Source: Solobacterium sp. (GTDB taxonomy: Bacteria > Bacillota_I > Bacilli_A > Erysipelotrichales > Erysipelotrichaceae). From it: 64,000 nt of DNA. The translations under genes were made by a program, and so were the position numbers. Under the pieces are notes generated by a model that saw nothing but the letters and a program-made list of their open reading frames with translations, did not search any database and was not told the origin of the DNA. The stretch's first letter is position 1. Every line of letters begins with the position of its first letter. The DNA lies in NCBI GenBank assembly GCA_017432325.1, contig JAFRJJ010000077.1, forward strand, positions 1 through 64,000. Reading direction: 5' to 3'. Positions 5,135 through 19,993 of the stretch are shown one piece after another.

Positions 5135-5321
5135 TATACGATCCGGAGACCGTTAAAGCATAAATAAAACAAAACTAATTTGCCGAAAGCGATTTGTTTT
5201 TCTTATAGACCATTTGTTATAGATATTTCACTTAAACTCCTGCAGAAACTATATTGAAATCAGCAACAAAGCATTTGTACATAATAGCACAGTGATTCAG
5301 CACGTGCGGAAAGGGGAAAAA

Positions 5322-6617
5322 ATGACTGTTCAAATGTACATCTGTCTGGGATTGTTCGCATTTCTGATCCTTGGTTATGTTTTTTCAGGGAAACTCGGTA
5401 CAACCAACGGCGTTATTGCGCTGACAGCGACAGTTCTGACATCTTTCACGGGAATCATTCCCGCTGCTAAGGTACTGGCAAACTTTGCGAATGCCAATGT
5501 TCTTCTGATTACCGGAATGTTTATTGTCTCAGCTGGTTTCAATCGTACACAGGCGGTTAAAAAGCTTTCAGGAGCTGTATACAAGATCGCCGGCGGAAAC
5601 TTCACGGTAATGCTTGGCGGTTATCTTCTCGTGACATTCCTGCTCTCCAATCTGATTCCGAGCCCGGTAGCGGTCTTCACGATCGTATCACCGCTGCTGG
5701 CAGCCAGCTGCGTTGAAGCCGGAGTCAGTCCGTCTAAAGTTATGTTTCCGATGGGTCTGGTCGTTGTCGGCACCTGCGGAGTGCTGCCGATGGGAACAGG
5801 TGCCGTCATGTTTGCACAGCAGAACGCATATCTGGAAAGTTATGAGTATACCGAATATGCGATGACATTGCTCGATCCTTTCAAAGGACGTATTCTTTCA
5901 GCCGTCCTGATCATACTGTTTGCGATCTTTATCGCTCCGAAATTCTGCCCGGACCATGAGACAAATGCCGTAACAGCAGTCAAAAAAGCAGCGGAAAGAG
6001 AACCGCTTGATCCGTTCCATGAATTCCTCGGATATGCGATCTTCATCGTTACGACACTCGGCCTTGTCTTCTCCAGCAAACTCGGCGTTGCGAACTGGCA
6101 GGTTGCAATGTGCGGTGCAGTTCTCGAACTCGTTCTCGGAGTATTGAAACCGAAAGAAGCAACCGCAGCAGTTCCTTACCAGGTTGTATTACTGCTGATA
6201 GCAGCTCTGTCTGTTGGCGGTGCTATGGTTGAATGCGGACTCGGCGATCTGATCGGTGATGCACTGGCAAGTGCTCTCGGCGGTACAAGAAACGGCTATA
6301 TCATCGGTGCGGCGTTCTTCCTGATTCCGTTTGTCCTGACACAGTTCATGCAGAACCAGAGCGTCATGAATATCTTTATTCCAATCGTAATCCTGACCTG
6401 CAAATCACTCGGCTGCAATCCGGTCGGACCGCTGATTCTTCTGAACGCGGCCTGCCTTACAGCATTCCTGACACCTTCTGCTACCGCAACGGTTCCGCTG
6501 ATGATGGAAGCAGGAAACTACTCACAAGGTGATCTGCTGAAGATGGGATGGCTGCCCAGCCTTCTTATCTGCATCGCCTCTGTCGTTGTTACTATGACAA
6601 TCTTCCCGGCATTCTGA
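5322..6617 (+). CDS. SLC13/anion-permease family membrane transporter (copy 1)
   Basis: A roughly 431-residue, very hydrophobic protein of the SLC13/ArsB-NhaD-type anion permease group (ion-transporter superfamily), predicted to import a carboxylate. Two similar halves each carry a conserved polar break: NLIPSPVAVFTI in the first and FLTPSATATVPLM in the second, the re-entrant loops typical of these carriers. The start MTVQMYIC is chosen because AAGGGG precedes it and the paralogue at 9415 begins MTSQMFIC. It lies 19 bases before an enolase-superfamily dehydratase, so the likely cargo is that enzyme's sugar-acid substrate (inference). Confidence 0.82.
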   Translation: MTVQMYICLGLFAFLILGYVFSGKLGTTNGVIALTATVLTSFTGIIPAAKVLANFANANVLLITGMFIVSAGFNRTQAVKKLSGAVYKIAGGNFTVMLGGYLLVTFLLSNLIPSPVAVFTIVSPLLAASCVEAGVSPSKVMFPMGLVVVGTCGVLPMGTGAVMFAQQNAYLESYEYTEYAMTLLDPFKGRILSAVLIILFAIFIAPKFCPDHETNAVTAVKKAAEREPLDPFHEFLGYAIFIVTTLGLVFSSKLGVANWQVAMCGAVLELVLGVLKPKEATAAVPYQVVLLLIAALSVGGAMVECGLGDLIGDALASALGGTRNGYIIGAAFFLIPFVLTQFMQNQSVMNIFIPIVILTCKSLGCNPVGPLILLNAACLTAFLTPSATATVPLMMEAGNYSQGDLLKMGWLPSLLICIASVVVTMTIFPAF

Positions 6618-6636
6618 AAAAAAGGAATTATCTCAC

Positions 6637-7794
6637 ATGAAAATTGAAAAAGTTGAAGCCATACGTACAGACCGTTACTGCTATGCAAGAGTCACAACGG
6701 ATACAGGACTTACCGGTATCGGAGAAAGCGGATCATTCGGTGCTTTAGAAGCATCGGCTGCCCAGATTGAAAACTTCGGTACTTTCCTTGTCGGCAAAGA
6801 TCCTCTCGATATTGAACACCTGTGGCAGGCTATGTTCCGCGGCATGTTCTTCCGCGGCGCAGCAGTTATGGGCGCAATCTCAGCGATCGATGTCGCGCTC
6901 TGGGACATCGCCGGAAAGTTCTACGGCGTACCGATTTACAAACTGCTCGGCGGCAAATGCCGTGACAAAGTACGTGTGTACTCACATGTCTTTGCGAAAA
7001 CCGATGAAGAACTGGTTAAGAATTGTCACCTGAGACGTGATCAGGGATATAACGCTGTCGGACATCTTTCTCCGTTCCTGGACGAACCGATGACAATGCC
7101 GTATGAGAAAACACATGTGAAAAACATGGAAGAATCCATCAAGCGTGTGCATCTGATGCGTGAAGCAGTAGGTGATGACATTGATCTCTGTATTGAACTG
7201 CACAGAAGATCACTGCCCGGGGAAGCGGTAGTCCTGATTAATGAAATCGAGGATGTTCATCCGCTGTTTGTCGAAGACCCGATTCCTCCGGGAAACAATG
7301 AAGCCATGGCATATGTTACGGCAAAGAGCAGAATTCCGATTGCGACAGGCGAACGTCTTCATACGATCTACGAATTCCAGGACCTGCTGGATAAGAAAGC
7401 TACCGACTATGTACGTGTCAGCCTGACAACGGTAGGCGGTATTACCGGGGCAAGAAAGATCGCTGCACTGGCAGAGACAAAGATGTGTCCGATCATCCCG
7501 CACAATCCTCTGAGTCCTGTCTGCACAGCTGCAGAGATGCAGTTCTGCATGAGCATCGACAATCTGCTGATATGTGAATATCCGGATCCTGACGGTTCGC
7601 TGATGGGTGACCGGACACATAAAAAGAGTGATCTTGTGACAGATTACTTTAAAGCGGAAAACGGCTATGTCAAAGTACCGGATGTACCGGGTCTCGGCAT
7701 TGACCTGGTTGAAGATGTTGAAAAGAAATTCCCGCCGGTTCCGTTCCCTGTCTGGTATCGTCTGAACGGCGACGGATCCATCCGTGACCAGTAA
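6637..7794 (+). CDS. Mandelate racemase/muconate lactonizing enzyme family protein (sugar-acid dehydratase-like, copy 1)
   Basis: A 385-residue enolase-superfamily enzyme of the MR/galactonate-dehydratase branch, expected to abstract an alpha proton from a sugar acid and lose water. The N-terminal capping domain (1-115) ends in VPIYKLLGGKCRDKVRVY. The barrel carries putative Mg ligands Glu187 (in CIELHRR), Glu213 (FVEDP) and Glu239 (TGER), plus His189 and His289 (HNPLSPV). Position 187 is Glu where E. coli DgoD and ManD carry Asp. It is cotranscribed with the permease 19 bases upstream. The substrate is unknown. Confidence 0.85.
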   Translation: MKIEKVEAIRTDRYCYARVTTDTGLTGIGESGSFGALEASAAQIENFGTFLVGKDPLDIEHLWQAMFRGMFFRGAAVMGAISAIDVALWDIAGKFYGVPIYKLLGGKCRDKVRVYSHVFAKTDEELVKNCHLRRDQGYNAVGHLSPFLDEPMTMPYEKTHVKNMEESIKRVHLMREAVGDDIDLCIELHRRSLPGEAVVLINEIEDVHPLFVEDPIPPGNNEAMAYVTAKSRIPIATGERLHTIYEFQDLLDKKATDYVRVSLTTVGGITGARKIAALAETKMCPIIPHNPLSPVCTAAEMQFCMSIDNLLICEYPDPDGSLMGDRTHKKSDLVTDYFKAENGYVKVPDVPGLGIDLVEDVEKKFPPVPFPVWYRLNGDGSIRDQ

Positions 7795-9414: not shown

Positions 9415-10722
9415 ATGACATCTCAAATGTTCATCTGCCTTGGCTTATTCGTCTTCCTGATCGGCGGATATGTCTTCGCAAAACAGCTCAAAACAACAAA
9501 CGGCGTCGTCGCTCTGTGTGCGATCATCCTGACAGCCTGGTCCGGATTGGTTGATCCCAAACAGGTTCTCGGCAACTTCGCCAATGCCAACGTTCTGCTT
9601 ATTACCGGCATGTTCATCGTTTCGGCAGGCTTCAACAGAACCCAGGCGGTCAAGAAATTATCTAACCTCGTTCTTAAGATTGCCGGCGGCAACTTCACCG
9701 TTATGATGGCAGGTTACCTGCTTGTAACCTTCCTGCTCTCCAACCTGATTCCCAGCCCGGTAGCGGTCTTCACGATCCTCTCACCGATGCTTGCCGCAAG
9801 CTGTGAAGCTGCAGGTGTATCTCCTTCCAAGGCAATGTTCGCCATGGGTCTGGTCGTTGTCGGTACCTGCGGTGTTCTTCCTGTCGGAAGCGGCGCTGTT
9901 ATGTTCGCAACTCAGAACGGTTATCTGGAATCCTATGCATATACGGATTACACAATGCAGCTGCTGGATCCGTTCAAAGGCCGTATCCTTTCTGCGATCA
10001 TTATCATTCTCTATGCGATCTTCATCGCTCCGAAAACATCGCCGGACCAGCCTACAAATCCGATCGAAGGCTCCACAGCCAAAGGCAGAGGCGCAGCGGA
10101 AAAAGAAGCACTTCCTCCGACACAGGAATTCCTTGGTTACTTCCTGTTCGCTCTGACAACACTTGGACTTGTCTTCGCATCCAAACTTGGTCTTGCGAAC
10201 TGGCAGGTTGCCATGACCGGTGCTGTTCTTGAACTCGTCCTTGGTGTCCTGACACCGAAAGAAGCTACACAGGCTGTTCCTTTCCAGATCGTATTAATGC
10301 TTATCGCTGCTTTGTCTGTCGGCGGCGCAATGGTTGCCTGCGGACTTGGTGATCTGATCGGTAATGGACTTGCGTCAGCACTTGGCGGAACCAGAAACGG
10401 TTATGTCATCGGCGCAGCATTCTTCATCATCCCGTTCGTTCTGACACAGTTCATGCAGAACCAGTCTGTACAGAACATCTTTATCCCGATCGTTATCCTG
10501 ACCTGCAAGTCTCTCGGCTGCAACCCTGTTGGACCGCTGGTACTTCTCCAGGCTGCCTGCCTGACAGCCTTCCTGACACCGTCTGCGACAGCTACCGTAC
10601 CTCTGATGATGGGAGCCGGCGGATACGATCAGAAAGACCTGCTCAAGATGGGCTGGCTGCCTTCTCTGATCATCTGTGTCGTCTCTGTTATCTGCACGAT
10701 GACACTGATTCCTGCATTCTGA
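9415..10722 (+). CDS. SLC13/anion-permease family membrane transporter (copy 2)
   Basis: A 435-residue paralogue of the permease at 5322, colinear over its full length with long identical blocks (NFANANVLLITGMFIVSAGF, QFMQNQSV, FLTPSATATVPLMM). The hydrophilic loop around residues 215-235 differs most. Same predicted fold: two membrane half-domains with polar re-entrant breaks. AAAGGGG precedes the start. It heads an operon with an alpha/beta hydrolase one base later and a second enolase-superfamily dehydratase, so it probably imports a related sugar acid, perhaps as an ester or lactone, given the hydrolase (inference). Confidence 0.82.
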   Translation: MTSQMFICLGLFVFLIGGYVFAKQLKTTNGVVALCAIILTAWSGLVDPKQVLGNFANANVLLITGMFIVSAGFNRTQAVKKLSNLVLKIAGGNFTVMMAGYLLVTFLLSNLIPSPVAVFTILSPMLAASCEAAGVSPSKAMFAMGLVVVGTCGVLPVGSGAVMFATQNGYLESYAYTDYTMQLLDPFKGRILSAIIIILYAIFIAPKTSPDQPTNPIEGSTAKGRGAAEKEALPPTQEFLGYFLFALTTLGLVFASKLGLANWQVAMTGAVLELVLGVLTPKEATQAVPFQIVLMLIAALSVGGAMVACGLGDLIGNGLASALGGTRNGYVIGAAFFIIPFVLTQFMQNQSVQNIFIPIVILTCKSLGCNPVGPLVLLQAACLTAFLTPSATATVPLMMGAGGYDQKDLLKMGWLPSLIICVVSVICTMTLIPAF

Positions 10723-10723
10723 T

Positions 10724-11614
10724 ATGAATCAGGAAGATAAACTTGCACTTGCCGAACGCTGCCGTAAAGCGGGAGCGTTCGGTTCCATCGCACCGGAGAT
10801 CCTGGAAAACCTTCCGGTACAGTCTGTCAATCAGCTGATACCAGCAGGGGAAAGACCCAGTGATGTCAATATACTGGATGGTACAAAAGGAAAACAGGGA
10901 CAGCCTTTGTTCATCAACCTGCACGGCGGCGGATTCATCAAGGCAAGAGCTGACCGTGATACGGTATACTGCAGTGAACTGGCAGATAAGTTTCAGGCTA
11001 TGGTGTGGGATGTTGACTATGTTCTGGCTCCGGAATATCCGTATCCGGCAGCTGTCAACGAAACATATGATATTGCAAAGTACGCATATAAACATGCAGC
11101 AGAATATGGATATGATCCGGAAAAGATCTTCCTTCTCGGCCACAGCGCCGGCTCCAATCTTGCCTGTGCTGCCCTGATCAGGAATTACCGGGAACCTGCA
11201 TTCCATATTAAGGGAATGGTCCTGGATTACATTCCTGTCGATCAGAGGATCAATCCGTTTTCCAAACTGAGTCCGGCAGAATACAGCGATCCGAAAAGGG
11301 TTTCCAGAGCATTGATGGAGTATAATTACCTTGAGCTGTATATGGAACCGGAACAGTGCATAGAAGATCTTGCATCTCCGGCAGCCGCTTCTGACGAAAT
11401 ACTTGCATCATTCCCGGATACGCTGGTCGTTACAGCAGGATATGATACGCTCCTGAAAGAAGGAGAAGACTTTGCCTGCCGTCTGGCAAAACTCGGTGTA
11501 CCGGTAACCTGGAAAAGATTTACCAATTCCCGTCATGGTTTTACGATCAACCGTGTTGACGAATGGGAAGAAGCTCTCTCCCTCCACTATCGTTTTCTGA
11601 AAGGTCTTATTTAG
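10724..11614 (+). CDS. Alpha/beta hydrolase fold esterase (HSL type)
   Basis: A 296-residue hydrolase of the hormone-sensitive-lipase/esterase group. It has the oxyanion-hole motif LHGGGF (about 66-71), the nucleophile elbow GHSAGSN (Ser about 140), a catalytic Asp in TAGYDTLL and a catalytic His in NSRHGF. There is no signal peptide, so it acts in the cytoplasm. It starts one base after the permease stop and is followed 13 bases later by the dehydratase, so the three are one unit. A role in cleaving an ester, acetyl group or lactone from the imported substrate before dehydration fits the context but is inferred. Confidence 0.87.
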   Translation: MNQEDKLALAERCRKAGAFGSIAPEILENLPVQSVNQLIPAGERPSDVNILDGTKGKQGQPLFINLHGGGFIKARADRDTVYCSELADKFQAMVWDVDYVLAPEYPYPAAVNETYDIAKYAYKHAAEYGYDPEKIFLLGHSAGSNLACAALIRNYREPAFHIKGMVLDYIPVDQRINPFSKLSPAEYSDPKRVSRALMEYNYLELYMEPEQCIEDLASPAAASDEILASFPDTLVVTAGYDTLLKEGEDFACRLAKLGVPVTWKRFTNSRHGFTINRVDEWEEALSLHYRFLKGLI

Positions 11615-11627
11615 AAAGGAACTATAT

Positions 11628-12773
11628 ATGAAAATCACAGATCTGAAGCTTCGCTTTGCAAAGCATTACCTGTTTGTGGAACTCTATACAGATGCCGGGA
11701 TCACCGGTCTCGGTGAGGCAGGAAACTGGGGTTTCCTCTCATCCACAGCTGACGCCATCATGAAGTTCAAGCCTTATCTGATCGGCAAAGATCCGTTCAA
11801 TGCGGAAGATATCATGCAGAACCTCTACCGTGCCGTATATTTCCGCGGTTCGGTCATCATGAGCGCGATCTCCGCGATCGATATCGCCTGCTGGGATATC
11901 AAGGGTAAGGCATTAGGTGTACCTGTCTACCAGCTGCTCGGCGGCAAAACACGTGACAAGATCCGTGTCTACGCATCCGTTATGAAAAAGTCCGAAGACC
12001 TGGACGAACTGGCTGAAGGCTATAAAGAACTCCAGGCTCAGGGATTCAACGCTGCGAAGATCTTCGTCAACGGTCCGATCAAGTCCAAGGACGGATTCGA
12101 TGAGTTCTATTCCGGAAGAGTCGAATCAGAACTGGAAAAAGTACGTGTGATCCGTGAGGCGGTAGGTCCGAACTTCGACTTCGTCCTGGAAGCGCACAGA
12201 GGCATGGATACACCGACAGCTGTTACATTCGGCAGGGAAGTCGAAAAATACAGACCGATGGTATTTGAAGATCCTGTTACACCGGACAATATCGACACCA
12301 TGGCACAGGTAGCCGATAAGATCAACATCCCGATCGCTACCGGTGAACGCTTCACCAACATCAGGGAATTCGAGATGCTGATGGACAGAACAGCTGTCCG
12401 CTATGTCAGACCTGATGTCTGCGCTGTCGGCGGTATTACAGCCACAAAGAAGATCGCCGGCATGGCAGAAGCACACGATGTGCTGCTGATCCCGCACAAT
12501 CCGCTCGGACCTGTCTCCACGGCAGCCTGCCTGCAGATCTGCGCATGCATTCCGAACCTCGGCATCCAGGAACTCCCCGGCTTCTGCCTGAACGGCGCGG
12601 AAGACGCAATGGTCAAGGAACCTCTGAAGTTCAAGGACGGCTTCATGGTCATTCCGGAAGCACCCGGTATCGGTGTTGAACTCGCTGACAACGCCGAAGA
12701 ACTCTATCCTGCAAATGAAAGAGGCTCCAACGTCGCCAAGAGAAGCTTCGACGGATCCGTCAAAGACTGGTAA
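11628..12773 (+). CDS. Mandelate racemase/muconate lactonizing enzyme family protein (sugar-acid dehydratase-like, copy 2)
   Basis: A 381-residue enolase-superfamily enzyme related to the one at 6637. The capping domain ends in VPVYQLLGGKTRDKIRVY. Barrel ligands are Glu188 (VLEAHRG), Glu214 (VFEDP) and Glu240 (ATGER), with His190 and His290 (HNPLGPVS). As in the first copy, the first ligand is Glu, not the Asp of DgoD/ManD, and this copy has HRG where the first has HRR. AAAGGA precedes the start. The divergence from copy 1 is much larger than between the two permeases, suggesting different substrates. Confidence 0.85.
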   Translation: MKITDLKLRFAKHYLFVELYTDAGITGLGEAGNWGFLSSTADAIMKFKPYLIGKDPFNAEDIMQNLYRAVYFRGSVIMSAISAIDIACWDIKGKALGVPVYQLLGGKTRDKIRVYASVMKKSEDLDELAEGYKELQAQGFNAAKIFVNGPIKSKDGFDEFYSGRVESELEKVRVIREAVGPNFDFVLEAHRGMDTPTAVTFGREVEKYRPMVFEDPVTPDNIDTMAQVADKINIPIATGERFTNIREFEMLMDRTAVRYVRPDVCAVGGITATKKIAGMAEAHDVLLIPHNPLGPVSTAACLQICACIPNLGIQELPGFCLNGAEDAMVKEPLKFKDGFMVIPEAPGIGVELADNAEELYPANERGSNVAKRSFDGSVKDW

Positions 12774-14177: not shown

Positions 14178-14250
14178 ACACCTTTGCCAAAGCGTTGAAC
14201 CTTACATTTTATTTAAGTTTGTCAAAAGGTTTCCTTCTATATCCTGCTCA

Positions 14251-14290
14251 CAAAAATATCCGGGCAGTCTGTTCAGTCCGTCCGGATATT
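14251..14290 (-). terminator. Terminator of the SDR/flavoprotein/PheRS-like operon
   Basis: Minus-strand stem AATATCCGG / CCGGATATT with an 18-base loop and a following TTT(TG) run. It lies directly after the stop at 14301 and separates this operon from the glycosyltransferase. Confidence 0.7.
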
Positions 14291-14300
14291 ACGTTATGAT

Positions 14301-15674
14301 TCAGTTTTCCCTTAGTTCCGGGGCGATATAGCCGTACTCTTCCGCAGCCTTGTTTTTCAGCGGAAGGATCTCGAGGTTTGCCATATAGGCATGTGTGCCG
14401 ATGTTGAAGTTCTGTTCAGCTTTTTCACTGATCCCGCCGAAGTTTCCGCCAAGATAGCTCATCTTCTCATCCAGGATCAGACGGCATTCGCCTGTTTTAT
14501 AGGCGATCGCCATGTTTGTCGGGATATAGAAATGATTGCTGTTTCCGATCTTTGTCAGGAAATCTCCGACATCCTTTGTAAAGGAAGCCTGGTCAGTATC
14601 TTCCCCGTACGCCGCGAAAGATACTGCGAGTTTTTCGATCGGTGAACTGTTCTGACGGGGGATAAAGATATGCGAGATCTCGAATGCCTTTGCCCGGGTC
14701 TCACCGGCGGCCCATTTCCTGCTGATGATATCTTCGATCGCCGGTGTCAGAACGGTCGGAAGTCCGGTGCTCTCACCCAGCGGTTCTTTGAGAAGAACAC
14801 CTCTGTTGTTCAGATCCCATTCATCCTGGATCATGTTCATCTTTTTATAGATCCCGTCCGGGTACAGTTTCATGCCGAAGCCTTCATCATAGCCCAGCGC
14901 GCGCAGGATATCACGGCATCTGTCTTCAAAGCTTTCGGTGACAGATGATGAATCGTCTGTAAAGCGGGAAAGGAAGGCATCCGTGTTGTCAAACAATTCG
15001 TTTCTGCTGTTCAGACTGAACTTACAGCAGGCTGCCTTATCAATGTCGATCGTGAACGCATAGCTGGCTGCCGGTTCTTTCCCGAGCAGCACACCGCCGA
15101 GCCAGGTCAATGTACCGGTATGTCCGAGTGTGAATGTCCCACCCTCAGGATCTTTGACCGATACTGCCCAGACATCCGTTTCCGTCAGTGTCGTATCTGT
15201 CAGTTTGTCAGCACCCCAACTTGCAAGGTCAGCAGGTTTCTGAGCCGAGCTGACTTTGACCAGTTCAGCCTCATAAGCTGTACCAAGGGCAAGCTTTACG
15301 ATCTTCTTCCACAGAACATTGAGGTCATATACATTCAGACCGCAGGCAATGATGCCCTGAGCCATCATATGCGCGGGATATTCCGGATCTTCTCCGTCAA
15401 ACACTTTGCCGAAAGCAGCTGCTTTGACAGGTCCTTCCTGCTTCATTTTCGGAAGCGCAAAGGGAAGCAGCTGTCTTCTGAGGGCATATTCACCGTTCTG
15501 AAGCAGGACAGGTTTTCTGAACATGTCCGGATCTTCAAATACAGTCAGATTCAGTTCGGTCTTTTCCAGTTCCGGGTATTCACCGTTATCGTAAAGGGTG
15601 AAACCGGAGAGGATCAGCGCTGTCCTGAATGCGTCAGCGGTGATCCTGATAGGGTGTTTTGTGATCTTTTTCAT
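14301..15674 (-). CDS. Phenylalanyl-tRNA synthetase-like protein: degenerate PheS-PheT fusion
   Basis: A 457-residue protein I read as two class II synthetase-like halves. Residues about 1-240 follow the PheS catalytic core: the motif 2 region (VKAAAFGKVFDGEDPEYPAH, 83-102) lines up with the GRVYR...TH block of E. coli PheS, and 184-238 (GHTGTL to DAFLSRF) lines up with the motif 3 GMVHP to FLKQF block. The motif 2 Arg is Asp93 and the motif 3 ERL is DKA (212-214). Residues about 245-457 resemble the B6-B7 core of PheT (ILRALGYDEGF, FEISHIFIP, GDFLTKIG). No B3/B4 editing, B8 or coiled-coil tRNA-binding module is seen. It is the last gene of the SDR-flavoprotein operon, 8 bases after the flavoprotein stop. 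It is probably not a working PheRS; the function is unknown. Confidence 0.7.
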   Translation of the reverse strand: MKKITKHPIRITADAFRTALILSGFTLYDNGEYPELEKTELNLTVFEDPDMFRKPVLLQNGEYALRRQLLPFALPKMKQEGPVKAAAFGKVFDGEDPEYPAHMMAQGIIACGLNVYDLNVLWKKIVKLALGTAYEAELVKVSSAQKPADLASWGADKLTDTTLTETDVWAVSVKDPEGGTFTLGHTGTLTWLGGVLLGKEPAASYAFTIDIDKAACCKFSLNSRNELFDNTDAFLSRFTDDSSSVTESFEDRCRDILRALGYDEGFGMKLYPDGIYKKMNMIQDEWDLNNRGVLLKEPLGESTGLPTVLTPAIEDIISRKWAAGETRAKAFEISHIFIPRQNSSPIEKLAVSFAAYGEDTDQASFTKDVGDFLTKIGNSNHFYIPTNMAIAYKTGECRLILDEKMSYLGGNFGGISEKAEQNFNIGTHAYMANLEILPLKNKAAEEYGYIAPELREN

Positions 15675-15682
15675 GTTCCACC

Positions 15683-17674
15683 TCAGATACGATTCGCGAT
15701 CTGCCAGCCCTCAAGGATGGCATTGCCGATATTCCGTTTATCATTGCAGCGAAGTGTCATTGTGCAGTCACCGATCTTATGGATCTCTTTGACTTTTCCT
15801 AAAAGCTCATCATAGATCTTCGGCGTGCCTGTATAGCCGCGGCAGACTAGTATACTGTCGCACTTTACAGTCTCTTCCTGTTTGGAACGGAGGTCTTTCA
15901 GTACGATCCCTTCATCCGTAAAGCGGGCAATGTCCTTGCCGGTCTTATATGTGACGCCTTTCTGGGCATTGAGGATCATCAGGCGCTGCTGCTGGGGCGA
16001 GGAGTTGTCGTCTCCGAGTTCCATGATCCCCATCATGCCGCTGCCTCTTCTGGAGGTGACGATCACTTTCCTGCCTGCCCGGGCCAATGACTGGGCGACT
16101 TCCAGGTTCATGAAGCATCCGCCGGCAATGACGACAGTGTCTCCTAATTGGATGCTCTGCGGATCTTTGCAGTAATCATATACTGTGTGAACATTCAGAA
16201 GATCCATGCCGCTGATCTTTGCTGTGATAGGTACTGCACCTGTCGCGACGATGACCGCGTCGTATCCGCCCTGCAGTACTTTTTCCGCTGTGGCTTCTTC
16301 TTCGATCACGGTGATGCCGGGTTTCTGCATTTGTCTGACATAGTAATCAATGAGGTGATCGATATCGCCTTTCAGTTCTTTGTCGAAAGCTGCCTCATGC
16401 ATGGTTCCGCCGAGCTTCCGCTTTTCATAGAGTGTAACTTCATGGCCTCTTTCCGCTGCCAGTCTGGCTGCCTCCATGCCTGCGGGACCGCCGCCGATGA
16501 CGCAGATCTTTTTCTTTGTCCTGGCCGGTTCTGTTTTCCGGAAATTGGAGGTGTTGCAGAGAGGGTTGACGGAACATCTCAGACCAATCGCCGCATTGAA
16601 GCCTTCGATCGTTCCGACACAGCCCATCGTGCAGCGGATGCAGGGAACGATATCTCCCGCTCTGCCTTCTCTCAGTTTGACTGCCCATGCCGGGTCTGCC
16701 AGGGAAGGTCTTCCGATGCCGATGAAATCCGCTGTTCCTTCTTCCAGTACCTCTTCAGCAAGTTCAGGTGTGGTAAAGCCGCCGTCCAGGATGATCGGGA
16801 CTTTGATTCCTGCCTCCTTCATTGCTTTCGCGATGGGAATATAGTCGCCGCGTCTGTCATACTGCGCATTGATGACACGGACATTGTTTGAATCACCGCC
16901 GACCAGATGAAGGGCAACGATACCGGTCTTTTCCAGTGCTTTTGCATGAATGATGCCTTCTTCCAGTGAGATATCCTTCGGATCGAAGGAGTCTCCGCAG
17001 ATCCTGCCGATAATGGGGAATGTTTTCCCGCACTTTTTCCGGCACGCCTCAATGATCTCGACCATAAAGCGGATCCGGTTTTCCGGTGAACCGCCGTACT
17101 GATCGGTGCGGTGGTTGTACTGCGGAGAGCAGAACATGTTGATCAGGTGTCCGATCGCACCATGGATCTCGATCCCGTCAAAACCTGCCATTTTTGCGCG
17201 CCAGGCTGCCTGGGCGAAGTCGTCTATGATCTGATTGATCTCTTTGACCGTCAGGCCGCGGATCGGGAACGGTCTGATGCCGCCCTGCATTTCATACATT
17301 GTTGAAGGTCCGAGTGATTCCTTTTTGTCTGCCAGGGAAAGCTGGTGTCCGATATGGCAGAGCTGCAGGACTGCTTTGACACCCTGGTCATGTATCGCTG
17401 AAGCCAGACGTGCCATTCCTGTGATCTGACCGTTTTCATAAAGACACATGACATTGTCTTCACCGCGGGAAAGATCATTATCAGTCGCTGTGCATTCCAC
17501 GATGATCATGCCCATTTCACCTTTTGCCTGGGATGAATAGAACGCCAGCGCATTGTCGGTAATATATCCGTTGGAGTCGCAGTTCAGGGAACCCATCGGT
17601 GCCATAACGATCCTGTTGTTGATTTTGATGGATCCCATTCTTGCGGGCTCAAGCAGTTTTGGAAAAGAATTCAT
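15683..17674 (-). CDS. NADH:flavin oxidoreductase, 2,4-dienoyl-CoA reductase/BaiCD-like
   Basis: A 663-residue three-cofactor reductase of the old-yellow-enzyme family. The FMN TIM barrel covers about 1-335. A 4Fe-4S cluster is likely held by Cys345, 348, 352 and 367 (PCIRCTMGC...LRC). FAD-binding GGGPAGMEAA (about 390-400) and an NAD-binding segment VVIAGGCFMNLEVA follow. Relatives reduce activated C=C bonds of enoates, cinnamates, bile acids or steroids. The usual HGAHGY active-site block reads HGAIGH (171-176), so the first His is Ile174 and the proton-donor Tyr is His176. It follows the SDR gene by 88 bases and directly precedes the PheRS-like gene. Confidence 0.88.
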   Translation of the reverse strand: MNSFPKLLEPARMGSIKINNRIVMAPMGSLNCDSNGYITDNALAFYSSQAKGEMGMIIVECTATDNDLSRGEDNVMCLYENGQITGMARLASAIHDQGVKAVLQLCHIGHQLSLADKKESLGPSTMYEMQGGIRPFPIRGLTVKEINQIIDDFAQAAWRAKMAGFDGIEIHGAIGHLINMFCSPQYNHRTDQYGGSPENRIRFMVEIIEACRKKCGKTFPIIGRICGDSFDPKDISLEEGIIHAKALEKTGIVALHLVGGDSNNVRVINAQYDRRGDYIPIAKAMKEAGIKVPIILDGGFTTPELAEEVLEEGTADFIGIGRPSLADPAWAVKLREGRAGDIVPCIRCTMGCVGTIEGFNAAIGLRCSVNPLCNTSNFRKTEPARTKKKICVIGGGPAGMEAARLAAERGHEVTLYEKRKLGGTMHEAAFDKELKGDIDHLIDYYVRQMQKPGITVIEEEATAEKVLQGGYDAVIVATGAVPITAKISGMDLLNVHTVYDYCKDPQSIQLGDTVVIAGGCFMNLEVAQSLARAGRKVIVTSRRGSGMMGIMELGDDNSSPQQQRLMILNAQKGVTYKTGKDIARFTDEGIVLKDLRSKQEETVKCDSILVCRGYTGTPKIYDELLGKVKEIHKIGDCTMTLRCNDKRNIGNAILEGWQIANRI

Positions 17675-17762: not shown

Positions 17763-18749
17763 TTATTTCCAGCCGTAGTCTTTGCCGGGTGCCTTGTAGT
17801 CAGGGCCGAGCATTTCTTCTTTTACTGCTTTGCGGAGCTCTTCTACATCCCAAAGAGGTCCCTTGTCTCCGTTTGTGATCATTTTGCCCAAAGCAGGCTG
17901 TGAGTAAGCCTGGAATCTGCCGGAAGACTTGATGGAGAATACGGAACCGTTGATGTAATCGTCAAGGCAGAGTACTGCGCAGAACGGCGCCAGGTTGACC
18001 GGGTCACCATGGTCTGCTTCAACAACTGCCAGGATCTTGGGGTCAGGTGCGTGTCCGGCTGCTGTGATCTGTCTGATCAGCGCATTGTATTCAACAGCGT
18101 GTGCAGGTGATTCGCCCTGCGGGCAGACACAGTTGACAGTAATGCCGAACTTATCGAGTTCTTTTGCGGCAGCCCAGGTCAGACCGACCATAGCTGCTGT
18201 GGAAGCGCTGTAGCCGTCATTGTTGGCAAGGCCGAGCCATGCGTCACTGGAGACATTGATGATACGTCCGTAGCCCTGTTCCTTCATATAAGGAAGCGCA
18301 TAATGCATCAGGGCGATCGCGCCGTGGTTTCTGCTGTCCATGAACAGCCGGAAATTCTTCTCGTCCATTGTTGCGATGTCGCCTGTTCCCATACCTGCAG
18401 CGTTGTTTACGATGATGTCGATCCTTCCCCAGGTATCGACTGCTGTCTTGACCATCTTTTCAGCAGTTTCCCAGTTGGAGCAGTCTCCGAAGAACGGGAT
18501 TGCTTCTCCGCCTTCCGCATTGATCGTATCCGCAGCTACCTGGGCGTCACCCTTCAGTCTGCAGAACTCATTCCAGTCTTCTTCCGGCATATCTTCTTTA
18601 TGATACTGCTGGGCGCTGTAGCCGTTCGGTTTACGGTTGTTGGTGATGACTTTCGCACCGAGTCTTGCAAGTCCGATTGCGATGCCTTTGCCGATACCCT
18701 GACCGGATCCGGTCACGATCGCGACTTTTCCTTCTAAGCATTTTTCCAT
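17763..18749 (-). CDS. SDR family oxidoreductase lacking the canonical catalytic Lys
   Basis: A 328-residue short-chain dehydrogenase/reductase resembling the dehydrogenase domain of multifunctional enzyme 2. It shows the cofactor loop TGSGQGIG (13-20), NNAAG (115-119), catalytic Ser in INVSSDA (about 167) and Tyr180 in GYSAST. The YxxxK signature reads Y180-S-A-S-T184, so the Lys that lowers the Tyr pKa is Thr (ACA codon). An insertion of about 25 residues follows the second strand (41-66). GGAG lies before the start. First gene of the operon and divergent from an AraC regulator. Either activity is altered or the protein binds ligand without turnover (inference). Confidence 0.85.
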   Translation of the reverse strand: MEKCLEGKVAIVTGSGQGIGKGIAIGLARLGAKVITNNRKPNGYSAQQYHKEDMPEEDWNEFCRLKGDAQVAADTINAEGGEAIPFFGDCSNWETAEKMVKTAVDTWGRIDIIVNNAAGMGTGDIATMDEKNFRLFMDSRNHGAIALMHYALPYMKEQGYGRIINVSSDAWLGLANNDGYSASTAAMVGLTWAAAKELDKFGITVNCVCPQGESPAHAVEYNALIRQITAAGHAPDPKILAVVEADHGDPVNLAPFCAVLCLDDYINGSVFSIKSSGRFQAYSQPALGKMITNGDKGPLWDVEELRKAVKEEMLGPDYKAPGKDYGWK

Positions 18750-18830
18750 GATTGTATTTACTCCTTTATCCTTATATATAATGTAACCGGTTCCAAATCG
18801 TTGTACTTTAACATATCTGTCATTATTAGC

Positions 18831-18853
18831 ATGATCATGTCAAAAATGATCAT
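18831..18853. promoter_or_regulatory. Paired ATGATCAT palindromes in the divergent SDR/AraC gap
   Basis: ATGATCAT occurs at 18831-18838 and 18846-18853, start-to-start 15 bases, midway between the divergent genes. TATAAT at 18873-18878 lies just before the AraC start. Two spaced half-sites are usual for AraC dimers; binding is inference. Confidence 0.45.
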
Positions 18854-18889
18854 TATCAAAACACAGCTGTACTATAATGAAGGTACAGT

Positions 18890-19993
18890 ATGAAACAGCA
18901 CACAATAGCAGAATTTTGCGATATCTTTTATGAAGCCCACAGGATCCCGGCGGGTATTTTCAGTGCGGACAATGTACTGATCAGGCTGTTTTCCGATTTC
19001 GGGGAAAACCGGCTCCAGATGTACCTGAATGACTGTGCCGGGATCCTTGACCGGAAGGAAGAATGTCCCGTGTTGATGTATGATGCCGGTGCGTCATGCT
19101 GGTGCTGTATTCCGGAAGAGGGAATGAAGATTCTGCTCGGACCGGTACAGACGGGCCGCAACCCGTCTTTCCGTTATGAAGGGATCCGGGAATATACGCC
19201 TGAACGGTTCAGGGACATATCCCTGTGCCTGATCCGCCTTCTGCAGGGCAAAGATGCTGTACTGAAGGATGATACCGGTACTTTTGCTGAAAGAAGACAG
19301 GCGGAACACATGTTTGAGGCTCGTGAAGAGACGATCAACCTGAACAGTTATGACGAGATATTTGAGTGTGTCAGAACCGGGGACCTGGGTGAGCTGGAAT
19401 CGCTGCTGGAGACAGGAAGCTACACAGAATATCTGAACCGTGTCATCAGAGAATGGGATGAGGCATATACTGTTTATCATTTTAATCTTGCTAAAACATA
19501 TCATGCGGCTTTGGGGGCCGGTGTTCCGATCACCGAGCTTGCCCAGCTGGTGGAACTGTATCTGAGAGACCTGAAACAGGATACTTCGATCGCAGCAGTC
19601 AGATCCGGCATGCGGCGTATGCTGTATGACTTTACCAGATATGTCAACCAGTACAGCGACACAAGATATTCTCCTATGGTCAATATGGCGTTGATGTATA
19701 TCAAAGAACATATCTATGAAACGATCGAAGTGAAAGATATTGCTGCTATCTGTTCAGCCGGTGTCTCCACGCTCCAGCACCGTTTCAGACAGGAAACAGG
19801 TCTGTCCCTTACAGAAAGCATCCGGAAACGGAAAGCCGAGAAAGCCTGTTACTATCTGCGCTATACCGCCATTCCGTGCGGTGACATCGCTTACCGGATG
19901 GATTACTGTTCACAAAGTTATTTCATCCGTCAGTTCAAGCTGGCAATGGGTATGACACCTGCCGAATATCGCAGCCGGGAGGGAAGAATATAA
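18890..19993 (+). CDS. AraC family transcriptional regulator
   Basis: A 367-residue regulator whose last roughly 100 residues form the two AraC helix-turn-helix units (IEVKDIAAICSAGVSTLQHR and GDIAYRMDYCSQSYFIRQFK), ending with the typical GMTPAEYRS. The N-terminal 260 residues are a sensor of the kind seen in large Bacillota AraC proteins: a PocR/GAF-like start with the Cys-rich stretch GASCWCC, then a helical middle. GAAGG precedes the start. It is divergent from the SDR-flavoprotein-PheRS-like operon, so control of that operon is likely. The ligand is unknown. Confidence 0.85.
   Translation: MKQHTIAEFCDIFYEAHRIPAGIFSADNVLIRLFSDFGENRLQMYLNDCAGILDRKEECPVLMYDAGASCWCCIPEEGMKILLGPVQTGRNPSFRYEGIREYTPERFRDISLCLIRLLQGKDAVLKDDTGTFAERRQAEHMFEAREETINLNSYDEIFECVRTGDLGELESLLETGSYTEYLNRVIREWDEAYTVYHFNLAKTYHAALGAGVPITELAQLVELYLRDLKQDTSIAAVRSGMRRMLYDFTRYVNQYSDTRYSPMVNMALMYIKEHIYETIEVKDIAAICSAGVSTLQHRFRQETGLSLTESIRKRKAEKACYYLRYTAIPCGDIAYRMDYCSQSYFIRQFKLAMGMTPAEYRSREGRI

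Follow-up and report, generated by a model that had tools for sequence, protein, structure and literature searches.

A fused PheS-PheT core without conserved adenylation arginines, encoded in a flavoenzyme operon of Solobacterium

The cores of aminoacyl-tRNA synthetases have been put to other uses more than once, as in HisZ, AsnA, PoxA and the aa:CP ligases (PMC9437257), and HisZ in particular sets a precedent for an enzyme subunit that was derived from a synthetase and does not adenylate (PMC9437257). A 2022 review that treats such paralogues synthetase by synthetase contains neither the word PheRS nor the word phenylalanyl (PMC9437257). Searches of the literature for paralogues of PheRS, PheT or PheS returned nothing relevant, and none of the literature searched describes an operon of an SDR, an OYE and a PheRS-like gene or a fused PheS-PheT core that has lost adenylation and lies in a flavoenzyme operon. 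Equol clusters hold several reductases, and the portion of the source consulted notes no synthetase-like gene among them. I consider here a gene of this kind, found in a window of 64,000 nucleotides of Solobacterium sp. (contig JAFRJJ010000077.1, positions 1 to 64,000); it would be a repurposing derived from PheRS, in which the cores of both subunits are fused and adenylation is lost. The features of the locus are collected in Table 1.

Among the known systems close to the protein is bacterial PheRS (PheS plus PheT), with which it shares a PheS-like N-terminal half, a C-terminal half like PheT B6-B7, their order in the operon and the same folds. It differs from PheRS in being a single chain, in lacking the coiled coil, B1-B5, the editing and anticodon-binding domains and the catalytic arginines, and in being encoded with an SDR and an OYE rather than with translation genes. 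HisZ is likewise a class II synthetase core that does not adenylate and is tied to a metabolic enzyme, but it derives from HisRS and its partner is a phosphoribosyltransferase (HisG); moreover, the role of subunit has been shown for HisZ, whereas for the fusion protein it is proposed here. PylRS and SepRS have PheRS-like class II cores (VIA Z about 20 against the model described below) but are active synthetases, with the motif 2 and motif 3 arginines and a cognate tRNA. The aa:CP ligases, AsnA and PoxA/EpmA are, like the fusion protein, class II synthetase paralogues outside tRNA charging, but they keep the chemistry of adenylation and come from other class II synthetases.

Table 1. Features of the fusion gene and its surroundings (coordinates within the window)
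Feature	Coordinates	Strand	Basis
PheS-PheT core fusion protein, 457 aa + stop	14301..15674	-	ORF, Pfam, profile, fold, hhalign
PheS-like catalytic-core half, residues 1-241, motif 2/3 Arg lost	14952..15674	-	hhalign, residue comparison
PheT B6-B7-like half, residues 245-457, the more conserved half	14304..14942	-	Pfam, hhalign, VIA
Asp93, at or adjoining the motif 2 Arg position	15396..15398	-	alignments (Arg deleted in one)
Former motif 3, residues 207-213 (FTIDIDK); Asp212 invariant, 213 variable	15036..15056	-	alignments
Block YPDGIYKKMNMIQDEWDLNN, residues 271-290, invariant in nine homologues, unlike PheT	14805..14864	-	alignments, hhalign
Likely intrinsic terminator after last operon gene	14255..14290	-	hairpin -19.2 kcal/mol over 14244-14300, z -4.09, then U-run
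OYE/FadH-type flavoenzyme, 663 aa, Oxidored_FMN + pyridine-nucleotide/FAD domains	15683..17674	-	Pfam, NCBIfam
SDR-family protein, 328 aa, tetrad N-S-Y-K changed to R-S-Y-T	17763..18749	-	Pfam, alignment
Divergent intergenic region, presumed promoter/regulator site	18750..18889	.	position only
AraC-family regulator, divergent here, linked to operon in every locus	18890..19993	+	Pfam, neighbourhood

The C-terminal half is readily recognized: residues 245-435 match Pfam family PF17759 (tRNA_synthFbeta) with an E-value of 2e-12 and a score of 47.5 bits (cutoff 22.4), and there is a partial match to NCBIfam TIGR00472 (fusion 245-447 on PheT 492-699). The N-terminal half, taken as a single sequence, matches no Pfam family, the PheS family PF01409 included, and the single fusion protein found chance matches only when compared by phmmer to the PDB. 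A profile made from eight sequences of the fusion family, however, matches genuine PheS ORFs of Lachnospirales (residues 6-119, E 1.1e-7; residues 5-127, E 4.7e-6) and also PheT ORFs, the latter within residues 244-455. By hhalign, the N half aligns to PheS with a probability of 96.5 (E 8e-10, 215 columns) and to PheT with a probability of 0.3, and the C half aligns to PheT with a probability of 99.1 (E 1e-18) and to PheS with a probability of 0.1. Because the two halves separately match PheS and PheT, the protein is a PheS-PheT fusion in operon order; a duplicated domain is ruled out by the same comparison, the N half matching PheS only and the C half PheT only. The first-pass annotation had proposed such a fusion, with boundaries at 1-240 and 245-457. 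The two cores stand, and the joint is corrected to about 241-245, the PheS match covering residues 5-241 and the B6-B7 match residues 245-450.

The two cores fill the 457 residues and PF17759 is the only domain found, so the protein is, as had been annotated, without editing (B3/B4) and tRNA-binding modules, and equally without the PheS coiled coil, the rest of PheT B1-B5 and the anticodon-binding domain. A separate housekeeping pheST is present in the same genome. Descent from HisRS, as in the HisZ family, was considered and set aside: no HisRS family appears among the Pfam or NCBIfam matches, and both halves match PheRS subunits. Weak profile matches to Dps ferritin and vimentin disagree with hhalign and with structure comparison and were taken as chance. 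Judged by sequence, then, the fusion protein is a descendant of PheRS, a PheS catalytic core joined to a PheT B6-B7 core.

Its predicted structure depends on the alignment supplied. AlphaFold given the eight-row family alignment alone reached a pLDDT of 45, and a good model (pLDDT 80.9, pTM 0.83) was obtained only after PheS and PheT rows were added, giving a 41-row alignment of the family with the PheS/PheT cores of 20 Lachnospirales genomes and of the fusion's own genome. In some of these rows translation was carried past the pheS stop codon, solely to help the alignment. MAFFT misplaced PheS onto the C half when given separate PheS and PheT rows. The best Foldseek matches to the model are the alpha and beta chains of PheRS, and VIA gives a Z of 22 to the PheT core over residues 248-449 (187 residues, 2.4 A, against 4p71_A 493-693). 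Since PheRS rows were in the model's alignment, the match in fold is a sign of consistency and not independent proof. The pTM of 0.83 suggests that both class II folds of the single chain are probably packed like the alpha and beta cores of PheRS.

In the N half of every homologue the motif 2 arginine is lost, either replaced by an invariant Asp93, the substitution first remarked upon in the annotation, or deleted beside Asp93, and the adenine-stacking phenylalanine has become a histidine or arginine at position 102. Motif 3 was said to have changed from ERL to DKA. The ER is indeed lost, but DKA is specific to the sequence in the window: across the family the replacement is D(K/R/Q/H/E)A, the variation lying at residue 213, and what was a GLER context is now xDxDxA. 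The C half has no catalytic arginine, as is true of PheT, and offers no replacement for the losses in the N half. Many of the 91 near-invariant columns of PheS are changed as well. The changes extend to Thr-x-Ser in the amino acid site; HP, E37, LR, Gly and residues of the motif 1 type are retained.

An aminoacyl-adenylate is implausible as a product, since the motif 2 and motif 3 arginines are conserved in neither half, and the alignments make ordinary adenylation by the protein unlikely. One might still imagine a rearranged active site that activates a carboxylic acid as its adenylate, for ligation, carrier loading or the charging of tRNA, as the class II paralogues aa:CP ligases, AsnA and PoxA do (PMC9437257). 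I consider this very improbable, given the loss throughout the family of the motif 2 arginine and stacking phenylalanine, the unconserved position of the motif 3 arginine, the lack of a substitute in the C half and of a tRNA-binding domain, and the fact that no tRNA or carrier protein gene was seen nearby. The activation or carrier-loading role suggested at first is therefore disfavoured, both catalytic arginines having gone as conserved residues.

The amino acid pocket bears on a different possibility, that the protein is a sensor of phenylalanine or some related ligand and exerts allosteric control over the enzymes, or controls transcription, having a regulatory rather than a structural role. 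The pocket residues of PheS, Ser180, Gln183, Phe258 and Phe260 in Thermus numbering, appear lost, as judged by alignment, which is uncertain along the strand of the phenyl pocket (about residues 137-165). This apparent loss speaks against a sensor, as do the lesser conservation of the N half and the linkage to the operon of a dedicated AraC regulator. The amino-group end of the pocket is partly kept, Gln68 being invariant and residue 106 being Glu or Gln in most members, and HisZ again lends a precedent (PMC9437257), but on the whole a sensor seems to me improbable.

The fusion family was found in nine genomes of Erysipelotrichaceae and Lachnospiraceae, several of them from cattle or goat gut (MAGs from cattle duodenum and goat jejunum are included). 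Within its own genus it is carried by five of the 70 genomes searched, and it was found nowhere else among 316 Erysipelotrichales; two genera of Lachnospiraceae have it in 3 of 11 and 1 of 42 genomes, and a sample of Lachnospirales in 1 of 392, true PheS and PheT aside. Eight loci came from a pattern scan over 84,980 genomes, a method that reaches close relatives only. No plasmid match was found for the fusion, nor did PADLOC report anything for it. The distribution is thus patchy, and the diversity of sequence amounts to about four lineages only.

Patchiness of this sort, and the fact that all carriers with titles shown are MAGs, might raise the suspicion of a decaying pseudogene or an artefact of assembly. 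This is scarcely credible, however, for a gene that is intact in nine genomes of two families, in the same neighbourhood, with congruent trees and a dN/dS of about 0.07-0.15, indicative of strong purifying selection. The fusion gene is not decaying, and to call it degenerate, as was done at first, is misleading, the more so in that conservation of its PheT-like half comes close to that of the adjacent OYE.

Conservation is distributed unevenly over the two halves. Among nine sequences, 135 of 216 positions are invariant in the C half as against 73 of 241 in the N half (Fisher p 5e-12), and the invariant residues that depart from the PheT or PheS consensus number 53 in the C half and 23 in the N half. 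Polar residues invariant in the C half include H335, H381, H428, C397, E396 and Y392. The model is poor in the invariant block of this half, with a pLDDT of about 45 at 282-290. The pattern of conservation indicates, therefore, that selection is focused on a feature new to the PheT-like half, conservation having shifted to the half that plays no catalytic part in PheRS.

That new feature could be a catalytic site, making the protein a pathway enzyme (e.g., an isomerase, lyase, hydratase or hydrolase) that acts between the steps of the SDR and the OYE. The 53 departures from PheT, among them His, Cys, Glu, Tyr and Lys, would suit such a site, as would a wholly invariant stretch at 271-290 and a degree of conservation approaching that of OYE, but a subunit interface could yield the same conservation, and no class II synthetase core is known to carry out chemistry of these types. 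I regard a new catalytic site as a serious possibility and the chief rival of the reading preferred below, though less likely than it.

In the window, 8 nt separate the stop codon of OYE from the start codon of the fusion (8-22 nt across loci), a hairpin with a U-run follows the gene, and the order SDR, OYE, fusion, with the fusion last, is identical, in both families, wherever the locus is long enough to reveal it. The survey of neighbourhoods proposed with the annotation found its trio, and these observations support the claim of cotranscription with a redox operon rather than with pheST. A gene of the AraC family always adjoins the module, either divergent and upstream or, in two loci, downstream. 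A scan of the divergent region for promoters gave promoter-like matches at the level of chance. The trees of SDR, OYE, fusion and AraC agree on the main groups, and the module has therefore been inherited as a unit. A close orthologue of the SDR was found in only 1 of 295 sampled Lachnospirales genomes, the one that bears the fusion; a pair of SDR and OYE without the fusion was not found, the next relatives of the SDR (41% identity) lying in other contexts. Near the fusion gene there was no tRNA gene, known RNA family, T-box or other link to tRNA.

I lean, with somewhat less than even confidence, toward the view that the fusion protein serves a flavoenzyme pathway as an accessory or ligand-binding subunit and does not adenylate, following the logic of HisZ. 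A PheS core has fused to a PheT B6-B7 core in the order of pheS and pheT, with the coiled coil, B1-B5 and the anticodon-binding domain absent; the product cannot plausibly make aminoacyl-adenylate and is the constant partner of the co-encoded SDR and OYE; and it would bind OYE, a metabolite of the pathway, or both, through the surface of its PheT-like half that has become conserved, in a manner comparable to that of HisZ with HisG. An aromatic ligand, as was suggested at first, is possible. A C half so rich in invariant polar residues would suit an active site just as well, which tells against this reading. An old part of translation was probably taken over for metabolism, and the three genes make a compact and testable module in which to study the takeover of a synthetase fold.

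The two enzymes of the module are themselves unusual. In the SDR, Ser and Tyr remain, but in all seven sequences YxxxK is YSAST and the position of Asn is occupied by Arg. Two SDRs found elsewhere, 41% identical (L088 and L089), have Lys at the position of Asn and YCAAN (YxxxN), which suggests a shift of the basic residue and not its loss; the SDR of the module and its relatives may constitute a subfamily with a swapped lysine. The putative Fe-S cysteines of OYE are intact, but its substrate His motif is HGAIGH and not HxxH/N followed by Tyr. Its closest solved relatives are a chain labelled NCR, which I presume to be 2-naphthoyl-CoA reductase, and 2,4-dienoyl-CoA reductase. An OYE with an altered site, an SDR with a rearranged tetrad and a fused, non-adenylating core with a new catalytic site in its PheT half might together perform an undescribed anaerobic pathway of the gut, with the core responsible for one step, but this combination I regard as rather unlikely.

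At locus L010 a GltD/PreT-like flavoprotein and an NAD kinase are inserted between SDR and OYE (L010:1878-3985), which may point to a supply of NAD(P)H. Near the module at locus L006 is a PreA-like protein of the dihydroorotate dehydrogenase family with an Fe-S domain (L006:7479-8984, strand -), which not every locus conserves. Elsewhere in the window, two neighbouring sets of genes (5292-7794 and 9415-12773) have similar starts, and each contains a transporter-like and an enolase-superfamily-like ORF. In the second set, the transporter, an esterase and a galactonate dehydratase-like enzyme are backed by Pfam and NCBIfam, and the two sets look like duplicated operons for the catabolism of sugar acids.
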